Assembly (NCBI GenBank): GCA_022705045.1
Contig: JAKJFE010000023.1
Span: 1-32,601, forward strand
DNA length: 32,601 nucleotides
Reading direction: 5' to 3'
DNA from: Pseudomonadota bacterium
Lineage (GTDB): Bacteria; Pseudomonadota; Gammaproteobacteria; Xanthomonadales; Ahniellaceae
Made by a program: the position numbers and the translations under genes. Shown here piece by piece: positions 12,697 through 21,066 of this stretch; position 1 is the first letter of the stretch; every line of letters starts with the position of its first letter. The notes under the pieces are model-generated. The model was not told the DNA's origin. It was given only the letters and a program-made list of their open reading frames with translations, and did no database searches.

Positions 12697-13284
12697 GTGA
12701 CCACTGCCCATCGCCTGTTGCCCGACCTCGCCACCCTGCCCGTGCTCGAATCCGAGCGCCTGACGCTGCGCCCCATCCACGAGGACGACCTGCCCGACCT
12801 CTACGCCGTGTTCGCCGATCCGGATGTGATGCGTTACTGGAGCACGCCGCCGATGCGCGACATGGACGAGGCCCGCGCCTACCTCGCCGGCATCGAACGC
12901 AACTTCGCCGAACGCACCGGATTCAAGTGGGCGATCACGCGCCGCGGCGGCGACCGCCTGATCGGCACGACCTCGCTGTTCCGACTCGACGGTCCGCACA
13001 ACACCGGCGAGATCGGCTACGCACTCGGCTCTGCCCACTGGGGCAACGGCTACGCCGCCGAAGCCGTGCACCGTACCTGCCAGTTCGGTTTCGAAGCACT
13101 CGGCCTGCGGCGCATCGAGGCCGACATCGACCCGCGCAACCACGCTTCGATCCAGGTCATCGAGAAAGCCGGCTTCCAGCGCGAAGGCGTGCTGCGCGAG
13201 CGCTACATCTACAACGGCGAGATCCAGGACGTCGTCTATTACGGGCTGCTGGCGCGGGAATTCGGCACGTCGGTCGCGCGATAA
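12697..13284 (+). CDS. GNAT N-acetyltransferase, RimJ/RimL type
   Basis: This 195-residue protein starts with GTG at 12697. It shows the RimJ/RimL layout: LESERLTLRPIHEDDLPDLY at the N-terminus, DPDVMRYWS, then GEIGYALGSAHWGNGYAAEA with the acetyl-CoA loop, and NHASIQVIEKAGFQREGVLR near the end. Such enzymes acetylate N-terminal or side-chain amines of proteins, or small molecules; the substrate cannot be told here. Its last codons and stop (GTC GCG CGA TAA) are the first bases of a REP doublet at 13272, so the C-terminus SVAR is contributed by the repeat. It is divergent from ohr. Confidence 0.88.
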   Translation: MTTAHRLLPDLATLPVLESERLTLRPIHEDDLPDLYAVFADPDVMRYWSTPPMRDMDEARAYLAGIERNFAERTGFKWAITRRGGDRLIGTTSLFRLDGPHNTGEIGYALGSAHWGNGYAAEAVHRTCQFGFEALGLRRIEADIDPRNHASIQVIEKAGFQREGVLRERYIYNGEIQDVVYYGLLAREFGTSVAR

Positions 13285-13460: not shown

Positions 13461-14345
13461 ATGCTTTCGATCCGCAACCTGTCCAAGACCTATCCGAACG
13501 GCGTCCAGGCGCTGAAGTCGGTCACGCTCGACATTCCCAAGGGCATGTTCGGCCTGCTTGGCCCGAACGGCGCCGGCAAATCCAGCCTGATGCGGACGTT
13601 GGCCACCTTGCAGGAAGCGGACAGCGGCGAGGCGAATCTCGACGAGATCGACGTGCTGCAGAACAAGGACGCGGTACGTCGCGTGCTCGGTTACCTGCCG
13701 CAGGATTTCGGCGTCTACCCGAAGGTGTCGGCCGAAGACCTGCTCGACCATTTCGCCGCGCTCAAGGGTTACGTGAACCGCAAGGAGCGCGCCGACGTTG
13801 TCGCCTCGCTGCTGCAGCAGGTGAACCTGTGGGCGGTACGCAAGCAGAAACTCGGCGGCTTCTCCGGCGGCATGCGCCAGCGCTTCGGCATCGCTCAGGC
13901 CCTGCTCGGGTCGCCGCGCCTCGTCATCGTCGACGAACCGACCGCCGGCCTCGATCCCGAGGAACGCAACCGCTTCCTGAACCTGCTCGCCGAGATCGGC
14001 GAGAACGTGGTCGTGATCCTGTCGACGCACATCGTCGAGGACGTGACCGATCTGTGCCCACGCATGGCCATCATCAACAAGGGCCAGGTGCTGCTGACCG
14101 GCGAGCCGCTGGAAGCGATCCGTTCGCTCGAAGGCCGCGTCTGGAAGAAGGTGGTCGACAAGATCGAGTTGCCCGATGTGCAGAATCGACTGACGGTGTT
14201 GTCGACGCGTCTCGTCGGCGGTCGCCCGGTCGTGCATGTGTTGTCGGATGCGCAGCCGGAAGCCGGCTTCGAACCGATCGCTGCCGGCCTCGAAGACGTC
14301 TACTTCGGCCAGCTCTCGCGCCATCGCGCGACGCTCGCGGCCTGA
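13461..14345 (+). CDS. ABC transporter ATP-binding protein
   Basis: This 294-residue nucleotide-binding subunit has Walker A GPNGAGKS (34-41), Q-loop YLPQDFG, signature FSGGMRQR, Walker B LVIVDEPTAGLDP and switch His in LSTHIVED. A C-terminal tail of about 85 residues follows the core. It is of the ABC-2/drug-export class. The stop is 13 bases before the next gene, which encodes a permease fused to a metallopeptidase, so the two very probably form one complex at the inner membrane. The ribosome-binding site GGGGGAA is 5 bases before the start. Confidence 0.93.
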   Translation: MLSIRNLSKTYPNGVQALKSVTLDIPKGMFGLLGPNGAGKSSLMRTLATLQEADSGEANLDEIDVLQNKDAVRRVLGYLPQDFGVYPKVSAEDLLDHFAALKGYVNRKERADVVASLLQQVNLWAVRKQKLGGFSGGMRQRFGIAQALLGSPRLVIVDEPTAGLDPEERNRFLNLLAEIGENVVVILSTHIVEDVTDLCPRMAIINKGQVLLTGEPLEAIRSLEGRVWKKVVDKIELPDVQNRLTVLSTRLVGGRPVVHVLSDAQPEAGFEPIAAGLEDVYFGQLSRHRATLAA

Positions 14346-14358
14346 AGGACGACGCCCC

Positions 14359-17300
14359 ATGTTCACTGAATTCCTGAAGTTCGACCTGCGCTTCCAGTGG
14401 CGCACGCCCTTGTTGTGGATCGGCATCGCCGTGTTCGCCCTGGTCGCGTTCGCGATCACGCGTTCGGACGGCGCCCAGCTCGGCGGTGCCATCGGCAACG
14501 TTCACCGCAACGCGCCCTTCGTGATCGTGCAATGGATGACGATCTTCACCGTGCTCGGCCTGTTCATCGCCGGTGCCTTCGTCGGCGGCACGCTGCTGCG
14601 CGATTTCGAGATGGGCACATCGGAGCTGTTCTTCTCCAAACCCATTGGCGCGAAGTCCTATCTGCTCGGCCGCTACACCGCCGGCGTCATCGTCTCGCTG
14701 ACGATCTATGTCGCGATCGCGCTGGCGCTGATCCTCGCCATTCTCGTGCCCGGCATCGATGCCGCCCGCCTCGGTCCGTTCTCGTTTTCGCCCTACCTCT
14801 ACGCGCTCGCGGTGTTCGTCATTCCGAACCTGATCTTCACCAGTGCGCTGATGCTGCTGTTCGCGGCGACGATGCGTTCGATGCTCGGCGTCTATCTGGC
14901 GATCATGGCTTTCCTGGTGATGTGGGCGGTGGCCGGCTCCTACACGCGCGACATCGACAACCTCTGGGTCGCCGCGCTGGTCGATCCGTTCGGTGCACGC
15001 GCGTTGAGCATCACCACGCGCTACTGGACCACCGAGGACCGCAACACGCTGTTGCCGGCGGTCAGCGGCTACATCCTCGCGAACCGCGCCTTGTGGCTGT
15101 CGATGGCAGCGGTGCTGATCGCGGCCACCCTGGCGCTGTTCAAGGCACAACGCGCCGGCACCAGCGCGCGCAAGCCCTGGTTCGCGAAGCGCGCCAAGCC
15201 CGCGCCGGCGGCGGCCGACAACACACTCGCACCGGTCACGCATCGCGCCATCGCCGCACCCGCGCCCAGCAGCTTCGGCGGTGCCGTGCGCCAGTATTTC
15301 AAGCAGACGCTCTTCGACACCCGCCACGTGCTGCTGTCGGTGCCCTTCCTGGTGATGCTGGCGTTCGGCGTGCTGAACCTGGTCGGCTCGCTGGAACAGA
15401 CCGGCATGTACGACACGCCGCTGTATCCGACCACCTCGCAGATGCTCGGCGCGATCCAGGGCTCGTACACCTGGATCCTGATGATCATCGTGATGTTCTA
15501 CGGCGGCGAACTGGTCTGGCGCGAGCGCACCGCCAAACTCGATGGCGTGATCGACGCCTTCCCGGTGCCGAACTGGGTGCCGCTGGCCGCGAAGGCCACG
15601 GCCCTGGTCGCGGTCGTCGCGGTGTTCATGACCGCGGCCGCGTTGTGGTGCATGGGCTACCAGTTGATGCAGGGCTACACGCAGCTGGAACCGCTGCTGT
15701 ACCTCAAGGGTCTGGCGCTCTCGGCCGCGCTGTATGTCCTGACCGGCTGGCTGGCGATCGTGTTCCAGGTGATCAGCAACCACAAGTTCGTGGGTTATCT
15801 CCTGACCATCGGCATCATGATGTCGTGGATCGTGCTCGGCACGCTCGACTTCGATCACAACCTGGTCGCGTTCGGCAGCGCACCGGCGACGCCGTATTCG
15901 GACATGAACGGCTACGGCCACTTCATCACCGGCTGGGCCTGGTTCACCGGCTACTGGACGCTGTTCACGCTCGCGGCCCTGCTCGTGGCCGCCGCGTTCT
16001 GGGTGCGCGGCACCCCGGAAGTGCTGCGTACGCGCGTCGCGGTGGCCAAGTCTCGTCTCGCCGGCCGTGGTGGCGTGCTGTTGGCCAGCCTCGTCGTCGC
16101 CACGCTCGCGACCGGCGCGTGGATCTTCTACAACACGACCGTGTTGAACCACTACGCCGCGTCCGACACGCAACTCGACCAGCAGGCAGAGTACGAAAAA
16201 CGCTGGCGCAAGTTCGACGACCTTCCGCAGCCGCGCATTCTCGCCACCGACAACGAGGTGCAGATCTACCCGGCCGAACGCCGCGTCGTCATCGACGGTC
16301 ACTACCGCATGAAGAACAAGACCACGCAGCCGATCATGGAGCTGCTGGTTTATCTCGATCCGGACTTCGCGACGGTGCGTTTCGACATTCCGGGCGCCAC
16401 GCTAAAAGAACATGATGAGGTCAGCGGCATGCGCGTCTATGCGCTGGCCGCGCCGCTCGCACCCGCGGCCGAGTTCGACTTCGGTTACCACATCGATGTG
16501 CAGAATCACGGCTTCACCAACAGCGGTGCGCCAGGCAAGGTGTATTACAACGGCACCTTCTTCAACAACATCGACTACTTCCCGCAGTTCGGCTATCAGC
16601 CCGGCGGCGAGATCAAGGACCGCAACGAACGCCGCGACCGCGGCCTTGGCGAACCGCGACGCATGCCCAAGCTCGAGACCGCGCCACGTACCGAAACCTA
16701 TCTGAGCGACGACTCCGACTGGATCGACTTCAAGAGCACCGTCTGCACCTCGCCCGACCAGATCGCGATGGCACCGGGCTATCTGCAGCGCGAATGGGAA
16801 GAGAACGGTCGCCGCTGCTTCCGTTACGAAATGGACTCGCCCATCCTCGGTTTCTGGGCCTACCTCAGCGCCGATTGGGAAGTGAAGCGCGACCGCTGGA
16901 ACGATGTCGCGATCGAGGTCTATTACGACAAGAAACATCCGTACAACGTCGACCGCATGATCGCGGCCACGAAGAAGTCGCTCGACTACTTCACCGCGAA
17001 CTTCGGTCCCTACCAGCATCGCCAGTTCCGCATCCTGGAATTCCCGGGCTACGCGCAGTTCGCCCAGGCCTTCCCGAACACGATTCCGTATTCCGAGGCG
17101 ATCGGCTTCATCACCAACCTCGAGGGCGAGGACGCGGTGGACTACGTGTTCTACGTCACCGCGCACGAACTCGCGCACCAGTGGTGGGCGCACCAGGTCA
17201 TGGGTGCGGACGCACAGGGCTCGACGCTGATGAGCGAGACCATGGCGCAGTATTCGGCGCTGATGGTGATGGAGCAGGAATACGGCCCCGAGAAGATGCG

Positions 17301-17958
17301 CAAGTTCCTCAAGCACGAACTCGATGCCTACCTGCGCGGTCGCGGCGGCGAAATCATCGAGGAACTGCCGCTCGACCACGTCGAGGACAGCCAGGGTTAC
17401 GTGCATTACCGCAAAGGTTCGCTGGTGATGTACCGCCTGAAGGAAGCACTCGGCGCCGACGCCATCAATCTCGCGCTGCGCAACTACATCGCCAAGGTGA
17501 AGTACCAGGAACCGCCGTACACGGTCTCGACGGAACTGGTCGCGGAATTCCGCGCGGTCGCGCCGCCCGAGCAGCAACAGCTGATCACCGATCTGTTCGA
17601 ACGCATCACCTTCTACGACAACCGCGCCGACGAGATCAGCGCGAAGAAGCGTGCTGACGGCAAGTACGACGTCACGATTGCGTGGAAGGCTGCGAAGAAG
17701 CTGTCGGACGGCATCGGCAAGGAGAGCGAGCTCGCACTCGGCGACGACATCGACATCGGCGTGTTCGCGCGCGCGAAAGGCGGCGACGAGAACGACGAGA
17801 AGGTGCTGTACCTGAAGAAGCACCGGATCGATCAGCCGGAAGGCAAGATCACGGTCGTCGTCGACGAACTGCCCTACGACGCCGGCATCGACCCGCTCAA
17901 CAAGCTGATCGACCGGGTCTCCAGCGACAACCGCAAGCGCGTCTCGCTGGAAGACTGA
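14359..17958 (+). CDS. ABC-2 permease fused to an M1-family metallopeptidase
   Basis: This large protein of 1199 residues starts at ATG 14359. Residues 1 to about 260 form one ABC-2 type membrane module with six hydrophobic segments (starting TPLLWIGIAVFALVAFAI). A basic Pro/Ala linker follows (about 260-310). A second six-segment module runs from about 320 to 560 (VPFLVMLAFGVLNLVG onwards), then a last membrane segment near 575-600 (VLLASLVVATLATGAWIF). The remaining 600 residues are an M1 aminopeptidase-like domain, predicted to be periplasmic, with the zinc site HELAH (936-940), Glu-960 in LMSETMAQYS, and a probable catalytic Tyr-1017 in YVHYRKGS. The Glu is one residue farther than in the classic HEXXH-x18-E. 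Similar ABC-2/M1 fusions occur in other Gram-negative bacteria, but their substrate is, to my knowledge, not known. Its ATPase is encoded directly upstream. Confidence 0.92.
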   Translation: MFTEFLKFDLRFQWRTPLLWIGIAVFALVAFAITRSDGAQLGGAIGNVHRNAPFVIVQWMTIFTVLGLFIAGAFVGGTLLRDFEMGTSELFFSKPIGAKSYLLGRYTAGVIVSLTIYVAIALALILAILVPGIDAARLGPFSFSPYLYALAVFVIPNLIFTSALMLLFAATMRSMLGVYLAIMAFLVMWAVAGSYTRDIDNLWVAALVDPFGARALSITTRYWTTEDRNTLLPAVSGYILANRALWLSMAAVLIAATLALFKAQRAGTSARKPWFAKRAKPAPAAADNTLAPVTHRAIAAPAPSSFGGAVRQYFKQTLFDTRHVLLSVPFLVMLAFGVLNLVGSLEQTGMYDTPLYPTTSQMLGAIQGSYTWILMIIVMFYGGELVWRERTAKLDGVIDAFPVPNWVPLAAKATALVAVVAVFMTAAALWCMGYQLMQGYTQLEPLLYLKGLALSAALYVLTGWLAIVFQVISNHKFVGYLLTIGIMMSWIVLGTLDFDHNLVAFGSAPATPYSDMNGYGHFITGWAWFTGYWTLFTLAALLVAAAFWVRGTPEVLRTRVAVAKSRLAGRGGVLLASLVVATLATGAWIFYNTTVLNHYAASDTQLDQQAEYEKRWRKFDDLPQPRILATDNEVQIYPAERRVVIDGHYRMKNKTTQPIMELLVYLDPDFATVRFDIPGATLKEHDEVSGMRVYALAAPLAPAAEFDFGYHIDVQNHGFTNSGAPGKVYYNGTFFNNIDYFPQFGYQPGGEIKDRNERRDRGLGEPRRMPKLETAPRTETYLSDDSDWIDFKSTVCTSPDQIAMAPGYLQREWEENGRRCFRYEMDSPILGFWAYLSADWEVKRDRWNDVAIEVYYDKKHPYNVDRMIAATKKSLDYFTANFGPYQHRQFRILEFPGYAQFAQAFPNTIPYSEAIGFITNLEGEDAVDYVFYVTAHELAHQWWAHQVMGADAQGSTLMSETMAQYSALMVMEQEYGPEKMRKFLKHELDAYLRGRGGEIIEELPLDHVEDSQGYVHYRKGSLVMYRLKEALGADAINLALRNYIAKVKYQEPPYTVSTELVAEFRAVAPPEQQQLITDLFERITFYDNRADEISAKKRADGKYDVTIAWKAAKKLSDGIGKESELALGDDIDIGVFARAKGGDENDEKVLYLKKHRIDQPEGKITVVVDELPYDAGIDPLNKLIDRVSSDNRKRVSLED

Positions 17959-17970
17959 GGTCGGCAGGAA

Positions 17971-18738
17971 TCAGGCGCCCGACGCGAACAGGCGTCGCGC
18001 GCCACGCACCAGCGCCACGCCGATGGCGCAGCCGACGAACACCGACAGCCACAGCGGCAGGACGTGCGCGAATGCCCACGTCCAGCCTTTGCCGACCACG
18101 GCAATCGCACCGAGCAGCAGGATCAGTGCGACCGACAATCCATACGCACGACCGATGACACTCGCCAGCGCGATCGACCAGGGTGCGTCGCGACCGTAGA
18201 CGGCATCGACAAAGGCCTCAGCCTCCCGGCTGACCACCAGCGCGCTGTCCGCACCGAAACCGGCCCGCACCACCGCGATGCTCTGACGCAGGTCGCGCAA
18301 CAGCAGTGACGCGATGCGTAGCGCCCGCCAGAAGCCGAACGGCGGCTTCAGATGCCTGGCCAGATCGTCGTAGTGCATCTGCAGATCGCGCGGCAGCGCG
18401 TGGTGGGCGATCAGCTCGCGCAGGTGGCGGCGCCGGATGAAGGCCTGCAGCGTGGAAACTTCCTCGCGCGTCATGCCGGGCGTCGCCGAAACCGCCGCCC
18501 AATCGAATCGCTCGACCAGGGCCGCCAGCATCGGCCAGCGCATGTCCTCGTGGTCCTGCACAGACTTCGCCAGCACCCGCCCGACCCGATCGACATCTTC
18601 CAGTCTCTGCAAGGCCGGCAACGCGTCGAGGAAGGCCATCAACGCATCCGAATGCTCGAGCCGTGCGCAGGCATCGAGGATTTCGTCGACCGTCTGGACG
18701 ATGTCGGCTTCTTCGGACGTGGTCACGGCGAACGTCAC
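17971..18738 (-). CDS. Uncharacterised membrane protein behind an Hsp70 relic
   Basis: This 255-residue protein starts with GTG at 18738. The first 160 residues look helical and soluble, rich in Leu, Asp and Arg (ILDACARLEHSDALMAFLD; TPGMTREEVSTLQAFIRRRH). Two membrane helices lie near the C-terminus (GLSVALILLLGAIAVV; LPLWLSVFVGCAIGVALV). No J-domain HPD motif or other known signature was seen. The start codon overlaps the stop of a 23-codon ORF with an Hsp70 N-terminus in a GTGA arrangement. In organisms with an intact HscC-type Hsp70 a neighbour of this kind could be its membrane partner, but that is inference. It ends convergently with the ABC-2/M1 gene, 12 bases apart. Confidence 0.7.
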   Translation of the reverse strand: MTFAVTTSEEADIVQTVDEILDACARLEHSDALMAFLDALPALQRLEDVDRVGRVLAKSVQDHEDMRWPMLAALVERFDWAAVSATPGMTREEVSTLQAFIRRRHLRELIAHHALPRDLQMHYDDLARHLKPPFGFWRALRIASLLLRDLRQSIAVVRAGFGADSALVVSREAEAFVDAVYGRDAPWSIALASVIGRAYGLSVALILLLGAIAVVGKGWTWAFAHVLPLWLSVFVGCAIGVALVRGARRLFASGA

Positions 18739-18806
18739 CCGTCGTGGAGCGCACTGGCGTCGTCGATCAGCGAGTTCGTGGTGCCGAGGTCGATGCCGAC
18801 AATCAT
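18735..18806 (-). pseudogene. Relic of an Hsp70 (HscC/DnaK-like) gene
   Basis: From ATG 18806, with a GGAG ribosome-binding site, the frame encodes 23 residues: MIVGIDLGTTNSLI then DDASALHDG and a TGA. The first fourteen are the ATP phosphate-binding start of Hsp70 proteins, closest in memory to the HscC type. The last nine do not match that part of Hsp70 and could be the original C-terminus after an in-frame internal deletion. The stop overlaps the GTG of the next gene, as would be expected if an intact operon once existed. Confidence 0.6.
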
Positions 18807-18913
18807 GCCGACGCTCCGTGTCGTTTCGCGGGCGGGCAGACTAACAGCGCTTCCGGGCGTTTTCAGCGCGGCGCGCTTCTGCTTCGATGGCGACCCGCCC
18901 ACCGGAGTCGCCC

Positions 18914-19546
18914 ATGCTCACCCTCTATTACGCCCCTGGCACCGCCAGCCTCTGCGTGCACCAGTTCCTGATCGAACTCGGAATCGAACATCGCCTGGAG
19001 AAAGTCGACACCGATGCGAAGCAGCAGAAGTCGCCGGAGTACCTGAAGCTCAATCCCGCCGGCGTGGTGCCGACCCTGATCGTCGACGGCGCACCGATGG
19101 TCGAATCGAGCGCGATGCTGATGTGGCTGGCCGAACAGGATCCGCAGGCGCGCTTCGTGCCGGGTGAAGGCAGCCGCGGACGTCGCGACTACCTGCAATG
19201 GTTCCTCCTTCTCGCCAATGGCCTGCAGCCGCCATTCCGCGCCTGGTTCTATCCCGCCGAACCGGCGGGCGAAGCGGCCATCGATGCCGTGAAGGCGAAC
19301 GCACGCGTGCGCATCGAAGCGATGTGGGACCGCATCAACGCGCATCTCGAACAGAACGGACCCTATGTCTGCGGCGCACAGCTGACCGCGGTCGACTTCT
19401 TCCTGTTCATGCTCTGCCGCTGGTCGCGCAACATGCCGAAGCCGGCGACCGAATGGCCGTATCTGGCGATGTTCATCGCGTCGATGAAGGCGCGGCCGTC
19501 GTTCAAGACGCTGTATGCGCGGGAAGGTCTGACGGAGTGGGCTTGA
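18914..19546 (+). CDS. Glutathione S-transferase
   Basis: This 210-residue protein starts at ATG 18914 (GGAG 6 bases upstream); a longer frame begins at 18887 but adds nine residues that fit no GST. The N-terminal thioredoxin-like domain has YAPGTASLCVHQFL (glutathione-binding/catalytic region), NPAGVVPTLIVDG with the cis-proline, and VESSAMLMWLAEQ with the ESxAI-type gamma-glutamyl site. The C-terminal domain is all helical (TAVDFFLFMLCRWS). The class is beta-like or the bacterial GSTs related to GstA; the substrate is unknown. It overlaps the convergent CPBP protease gene by 44 bases at its 3' end. Confidence 0.9.
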   Translation: MLTLYYAPGTASLCVHQFLIELGIEHRLEKVDTDAKQQKSPEYLKLNPAGVVPTLIVDGAPMVESSAMLMWLAEQDPQARFVPGEGSRGRRDYLQWFLLLANGLQPPFRAWFYPAEPAGEAAIDAVKANARVRIEAMWDRINAHLEQNGPYVCGAQLTAVDFFLFMLCRWSRNMPKPATEWPYLAMFIASMKARPSFKTLYAREGLTEWA

Positions 19547-20569: not shown

Positions 20570-20596
20570 TGTAGGAGCGCGGTTTATCGCACGACC
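20570..20596 (+). repeat. Single REP at the 3' end of the RAYT gene
   Basis: The 27-base copy begins TGTAGGAGCGCGGTTTATCG. Read on the minus strand it provides the RAYT stop codon (GTC GTG CGA TAA). It is the left flank of a REPtron. Confidence 0.88.
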
Positions 20597-21066
20597 CGAA
20601 ACAGTCCATCTCCCGTAAACGCATAGTCCTCGCAACGCGCACACAAACCTGCACGAACCGGATTTTCAGCGATGTAACGACGCGCCTTGTCGATGTCGCC
20701 AACGCTCCGAATCGCACGATCGTGAAATGCTCGCGCCCAAATTGGCCCCGTTCTTCCGAGACAGCGATTCACGGTGTAGGCGCTGATGTTCTTGAAACGA
20801 TTCATGGCCAGGGACAGTGATACGGGCACATCCAACTCGATCAGGCCATGCCAGTGGTCGGGCATCAGCACCCAAGACAGAATTCGTGCGCCTGCGAACG
20901 TCGCTGGCTCGGCGTGGCGCATCGCCAAGGCCTTGGCGACAACCGGGTCCGAAAACCATGGCGTTCGCCCGAGCGTGACGGTGGTGACGAGGTAGGTGCG
21001 ATCAGGCTCGCTGACGCGACCGATGCGTAGTGCCCGATGACCGGATGGAAGATCGCGAGAGGACAT
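20584..21066 (-). CDS. REP-associated tyrosine transposase (RAYT)
   Basis: This 160-residue protein is a Y1 single-strand transposase of the IS200/IS605-related RAYT group. It has the HUH metal-binding motif LMPDHWHGLIEL (His-71, His-73) and the catalytic tyrosine in KARRYIAENPVRAGLC (Tyr-131), a segment characteristic of RAYTs. RAYTs bind and nick GTAG-headed REP hairpins. The gene is flanked by REP copies on both sides (20570-20596; 21166-21233), giving a typical REPtron. Its C-terminus VVR and stop are encoded by the left REP itself. Likely domesticated and single-copy rather than a classic insertion sequence; no terminal inverted repeats or target duplications were seen. Confidence 0.93.
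   Translation of the reverse strand: MSSRDLPSGHRALRIGRVSEPDRTYLVTTVTLGRTPWFSDPVVAKALAMRHAEPATFAGARILSWVLMPDHWHGLIELDVPVSLSLAMNRFKNISAYTVNRCLGRTGPIWARAFHDRAIRSVGDIDKARRYIAENPVRAGLCARCEDYAFTGDGLFRVVR

Follow-up and report, generated by a model that had tools for sequence, protein, structure and literature searches.

What is a 23-codon reading frame that begins like an Hsp70 chaperone doing directly in front of a membrane-protein gene? The question is raised by the minus strand of a 32,601-nucleotide stretch of DNA from a member of the Ahniellaceae, the whole of which is called the window here. The initial annotation had described an Hsp70 ATP-binding start with a ribosome-binding site at 18735-18806, in a frame that ends nine codons later with a TGA overlapping the next start. 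The Hsp70-type start is real, as a census of its pattern in related genomes bears out; it lies on the minus strand, and the frame end and the overlap can be read directly from the letters: the stub TGA shares GTGA with the GTG (18738-18736) of the downstream membrane-protein frame. The stub extends from the ATG at 18806 to the TGA at 18737-18735, and its full translation up to the stop is MIVGIDLGTTNSLIDDASALHDG. Behind the GGAG, the layout from 18806 to 18735 is thus MIVGIDLGTTNSLI-DDASALHDG and the stop.

18735..18806, minus strand: hscC stub ORF of 23 codons, with the HscC N-terminus MIVGIDLGTTNSLI as codons 1-14 and DDASALHDG as codons 15-23
18814..18817, minus strand: Shine-Dalgarno-like GGAG, 7 nt 5' of the stub ATG by sequence

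The phosphate loop IGIDLGTT[N/H]SL[I/V] follows directly after the stub start, and 14 of 14 residues are as in intact relatives. The degenerate pattern M-[hydrophobic]-[V/I]-G-I-D-L-G-T-T-N-S-L was present in just 16 of the 398 genomes of the order. Apart from the window, all 15 matching genomes displayed it at the starts of full-length Hsp70 genes, and the reversed control pattern had zero matches in the 398 genomes. Therefore, the stub N-terminus is not a chance resemblance. A broader N-terminus pattern was found at 90 places in 89 genomes of the order. Where enough downstream sequence was present (one start ends at a contig edge, leaving its frame incomplete), these starts opened Hsp70 frames of at least 511 codons, except in the window and in three genomes of another genus (G030, G045, and G085). 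The complete Hsp70s behind such starts are 559-571 aa long. Three of them that were compared displayed 43-48% identity to E. coli HscC versus 33-37% to the DnaK of the window genome, and by this comparison the Hsp70s behind these starts are HscC. The stub itself does not qualify as an HscC protein because its frame stops at 23 codons, without the ATPase and substrate-binding domains of an expected 550-580 aa; judged by its residues, it is an HscC relic. No Hsp70 resemblance was found beyond codon 14, and codons 15-23 do not extend the HscC N-terminus.

In E. coli, HscC is a specialised Hsp70 that functions with its membrane J-domain proteins DjlB and DjlC (PMC8215388). Little is known of the task of HscC, whose J proteins are regarded as targeting factors for it (PMC8215388). 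The likeness of the present locus to this system lies in the HscC type of the stub start and in the pairing of HscC with a J-like membrane protein in the intact relatives. The initial annotation had suggested a comparison with relatives for an intact hscC-like gene upstream of the membrane protein, and such relatives were found: a gene for a J-like homologue of this membrane protein lies directly 3' of intact hscC, mostly with a -4 or -1 overlap. The -4 overlap, as in GTGA, is the commonest junction (34/73). This arrangement differs from that of E. coli, because hscC and its partner are co-oriented and overlapping in the relatives, whereas djlC and hscC converge in E. coli. Furthermore, the post-J region gives no match to DjlB/DjlC. 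The window differs in addition by keeping only 14 hscC codons and a partner without the J-like domain.

In this order, the HPD of the partner J-like domain reads RPD in 43 of 79 cases and is degenerated further in others, which makes it questionable that these partners (loci L066-L080 and L161-L217) stimulate Hsp70 in the usual way. The family to which loci L066, L079, and L080 belong includes Dokdonella, Oleiagrimonas, and Rudaea. J-like partner genes occur as tandem pairs behind a single hscC at three loci (L069, L076, and L078), and two J-less post-J paralogues lie in tandem at another (L158). The partner part of the hscC operon is variable and duplicated. Outside this group, HscC-like Hsp70s with the same N-terminus were seen in Lachnospiraceae (L084, L090, L097, and L106), where the gene overlaps a macro-domain-like gene in place of one for a J protein.

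The gene downstream of the stub encodes a 255-aa protein, P0003, with the following features.

17971..18738, minus strand: gene for P0003, a J-less HscC-partner membrane protein of 255 aa, whose GTG start overlaps the stub TGA
18187..18708, minus strand: residues 11-184, a helical domain with homology to the post-J region of HscC partners (45.2 bits by hmmsearch, 97% by hhalign, all-helical model)
18091..18147, minus strand: transmembrane segment 1, residues 198-216, predicted from hydropathy
18007..18063, minus strand: transmembrane segment 2, residues 226-244, predicted from hydropathy
18724..18726, minus strand: alternative GTG start of P0003, 8 nt after GGGTGA (18740-18735)

The gene is real: its codon-position GC (0.72/0.47/0.83) is similar to that of neighbouring genes. 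The GTG at 18738 is the first possible start of the frame; the true start may instead be a second GTG at 18726, 12 nt further on, which stands behind GGGTGA with an 8-nt gap. P0003 was unrecognised by Pfam and NCBIfam, and a PDB structure search with its AlphaFold model (pLDDT 77) gave no meaningful match. No convincing direct sequence relative was found in 10 genomes of the family, 398 of the order, and 369 of the class, nor among genome contigs, viral contigs, plasmids, and phages.

What kind of protein is P0003? It adjoins the hscC stub downstream on the same strand, a position typical of HscC partners. More direct evidence comes from a profile built from 79 HscC-partner post-J regions, with P0003 left out. 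The profile matched residues 11-238 with 45.2 bits and an hhalign probability of 97%, against 8.9 bits for the best of 1000 shuffles and 8.3 bits for the best unrelated control ORF. A smaller, earlier partner profile had given 16.6 bits, and an alignment of full-length partners with P0003 was too noisy; the homology showed by partner profile only. The AlphaFold model is all-helical, with the first helix at residue 8. P0003 begins at the edge of the post-J domain, and the profile alignment starts where that domain starts. The N-terminal J-like domain (KRAYA..RPDDDP..F) and the linker are missing from P0003, which has no DnaJ match. Based on the profile comparison, P0003 corresponds to the post-J part of an HscC-partner J-like membrane protein. 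Its first residues, VTFAV, were considered as the original N-terminus of the partner and were not distinguishable from controls, 13-50% of which were equal.

These observations converge on a model in which the stub is the remnant of an hscC-partner operon, the deletion having taken HscC from codon 15 onward plus the front of the partner; its probability is roughly 0.78. One deletion would have started after hscC codon 14 and run on as far as the linker in the partner gene downstream, thereby removing the entire Hsp70 body and the J-like domain of the partner. What would have survived is the 5' end of hscC (ribosome-binding site, start, and 14 codons) and the post-J helical domain of the partner with its membrane anchor. 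The partner front was probably removed along with HscC because P0003 lacks the J-like domain and starts at post-J, and a single event is favoured because it accounts for both losses together. The membrane protein would now be expressed behind the old hscC translation-initiation region, and what functions in the surviving locus is most likely the post-J domain of this protein. In this best explanation the event would have been single, the stub would be translated, and its translation would aid the downstream gene. The locus resembles gene remnants left by operon deletions in that a start region was kept, the body is gone, and the downstream gene was brought under it. It differs from them because the same operon was hit independently in two lineages and because the downstream half is under purifying selection (tested in the other lineage only).

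The nine codons at the end of the stub fit this history less simply. No source was found for codons 15-23 among the HscC N-terminus, HscC C-termini, and the partner linker. As a candidate linker of the partner gene, DDASALHDG is not clearly linker-like, unlike VTFAVTTSEEAD, which follows the GTG and is linker-like. Since codons 15-23 are neither HscC-like nor clearly linker-like, the junction may have formed in two steps and contain filler, and smaller changes may have come after the main deletion. The breakpoints are not directly visible because no relative of P0003 close enough for DNA comparison was found.

Further evidence for such truncation comes from the three genomes of another genus noted above. 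G085 has a stub of 24 codons, MIAGIDLGTTHSLIGVKRADGAVL, followed after its stop by ~100 nt and a J-less partner with its own ribosome-binding site. In G030 and G045, the same J-less partner begins with 12 hscC codons, MIAGIDLGTTHS, joined to it in frame. The G030 fusion was found by profile search; its junction reads MIAGIDLGTTHS-TGPSAAEALADRIV, and the N-terminal peptide predicted from the fused start is MIAGIDLGTTHSTGPSAAE. A 126-nt in-frame deletion converts the G085 arrangement into the G030 state, and the G085 arrangement is the older of the two. A fourth genome of that genus, G227, carries intact hscC and partner at the syntenic locus, with flanks ~95% identical. No other HscC was found in G030, G045, and G085, and G227 has one. 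The truncation in these genomes is taken to be independent of that in the window, because the stub endpoints differ and the genera belong to different families.

Purifying selection acts on the J-less protein in the G030/G085 lineage, the only one in which dN/dS was tested. In the comparison of G030 with G085, dN/dS was 0.43 (Fisher p 0.0014), from 30 synonymous and 40 nonsynonymous differences. A second J-less paralogue lies behind the first, and its dN/dS was 0.31. The Hsp70 and the J-like domain were lost, yet the rest of the partner is under purifying selection, which indicates a separate function for the post-J membrane domain. In other words, a co-chaperone can outlive its chaperone. The J-less protein opens a direct test of its own role and of whether HscC normally acts on or through it.

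How is P0003 translated? Ribosomes leaving the stub may re-initiate at the GTGA overlap, so that the two frames are coupled, or translation may begin at the second GTG, 12 nt downstream behind GGGTGA. The stub is a possible translationally coupled leader, as the initial annotation had it, and resembles such leader ORFs in being short, in having a Shine-Dalgarno sequence, and in having a stop that overlaps the next start. It differs from them because it is the remnant of a long gene and because the second start has its own SD-like sequence; the coupling is putative. No terminator or special RNA structure was found between the stub and the P0003 gene, and the RNA fold at this region is unremarkable (z -0.01). 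An attenuator would not fit into the 4-nt overlap, and, given the average fold and the lack of a terminator, translational coupling is the sole leader role left. Nothing relevant was found in the literature on Hsp70 relics as leaders.

The strongest competing view accepts the same origin and treats the stub as an untranslated or irrelevant relic, with P0003 expressed alone from the GTG at 18726 behind GGGTGA. It is a somewhat doubtful but serious contender. GGGTGA at 8-nt spacing is a good independent ribosome-binding site that would permit independent initiation, the featureless RNA fold is in keeping with this view, and the J-less partner of G085 also has its own ribosome-binding site past the stub stop. 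However, the window stub has kept a good SD and start, and in G030 and G045 the stub start now serves as the start of the protein, having become its own N-terminus rather than a separate leader. The region from -150 to +36 around the stub start displayed 2 differences between G030 and G085. Of the windows compared, 2-7% reach this value, which is only suggestive of constraint on the start region in that comparison. A broader statement, that HscC loss repeatedly leaves a J-less membrane partner with a chaperone-independent function and with the hscC start kept as its translation start (fused N-terminus or coupled leader), is offered tentatively, at a little under even odds.

The initial annotation had proposed an in-frame deletion of nearly the whole Hsp70 gene, with a relic that may act as a coupled leader. 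Such a deletion, confined to the Hsp70 gene, would have kept codons 1-14 and the final nine codons and left the downstream gene otherwise intact. The hscC relic stands, whereas a clean in-frame event within the Hsp70 gene is improbable. The GTGA overlap is the commonest intact hscC/partner junction, as if the original had been kept, but a G before any TGA yields GTGA. The tail, only nine residues long, did not match the Hsp70 C-terminus: compared with HscC C-termini, it scores no better than random frame ends do, and 14-23% of these do equally well. Furthermore, the J-like domain of the downstream gene is missing, so that a second deletion would be needed.

The 14 N-terminal residues of an Hsp70 make up one hairpin of the ATPase. 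It is therefore very improbable that the stub is a functional micropeptide, such as a competitor for HscC or DnaK partners: the phosphate-loop sequence is intact in the first 14 residues, but a lone ATPase hairpin is not expected to fold or bind, and stub length and tail vary (23, 24, and 12 codons fused) with no common sequence beyond codon 14. An assembly artefact is just as hard to credit. The window is one contig out of a 242-contig draft, but the genes on both sides are intact and keep the gene order of the congeners. In addition, a like truncated architecture is seen in a different family, in genomes that are near-complete and of which one is a single contig.

The surroundings of the locus in the window are as follows.

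17953..18877, strand not assigned: block made up of the stub and the membrane gene alone, missing in congeners G004 and G005, where the flanks adjoin
14236..17958, plus strand: left flank, ABC-2 permease/M1 peptidase-like gene common to congeners
18887..19546, plus strand: right flank, glutathione S-transferase gene common to congeners

In the simplest reading, the block was gained in the window lineage, and a P0003 relative is absent from all ten genomes of the family; alternatively, the block may have been lost twice. Hsp70 matches in the window genome consist of DnaK and one weak, partial match of a kind present in nearly all genomes of the family. No other HscC or HscC body was found in this 86%-complete draft of 242 contigs, and an intact hscC may lie on a contig missing from it. 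Another member of the family (G003) encodes a 790-aa Hsp70-like protein with a TPR-like C-terminus (L041, 5987-8359) that is unrelated to the stub locus.

The left flank (14236-17958) is one long frame of 1240 aa in which segments of an ABC-2 type permease are linked to an M1-type metallopeptidase; it is kept in both congeners. Elsewhere in the window, a REP-associated tyrosine transposase is encoded at 20584-21066 on the minus strand (NF047646, 110 bits). The palindromic repeat CGCGATAAACCGCGCTCCTA occurs near 13270, 20570, and 21140, with copies beside the transposase, and together they constitute a RAYT/REP system.
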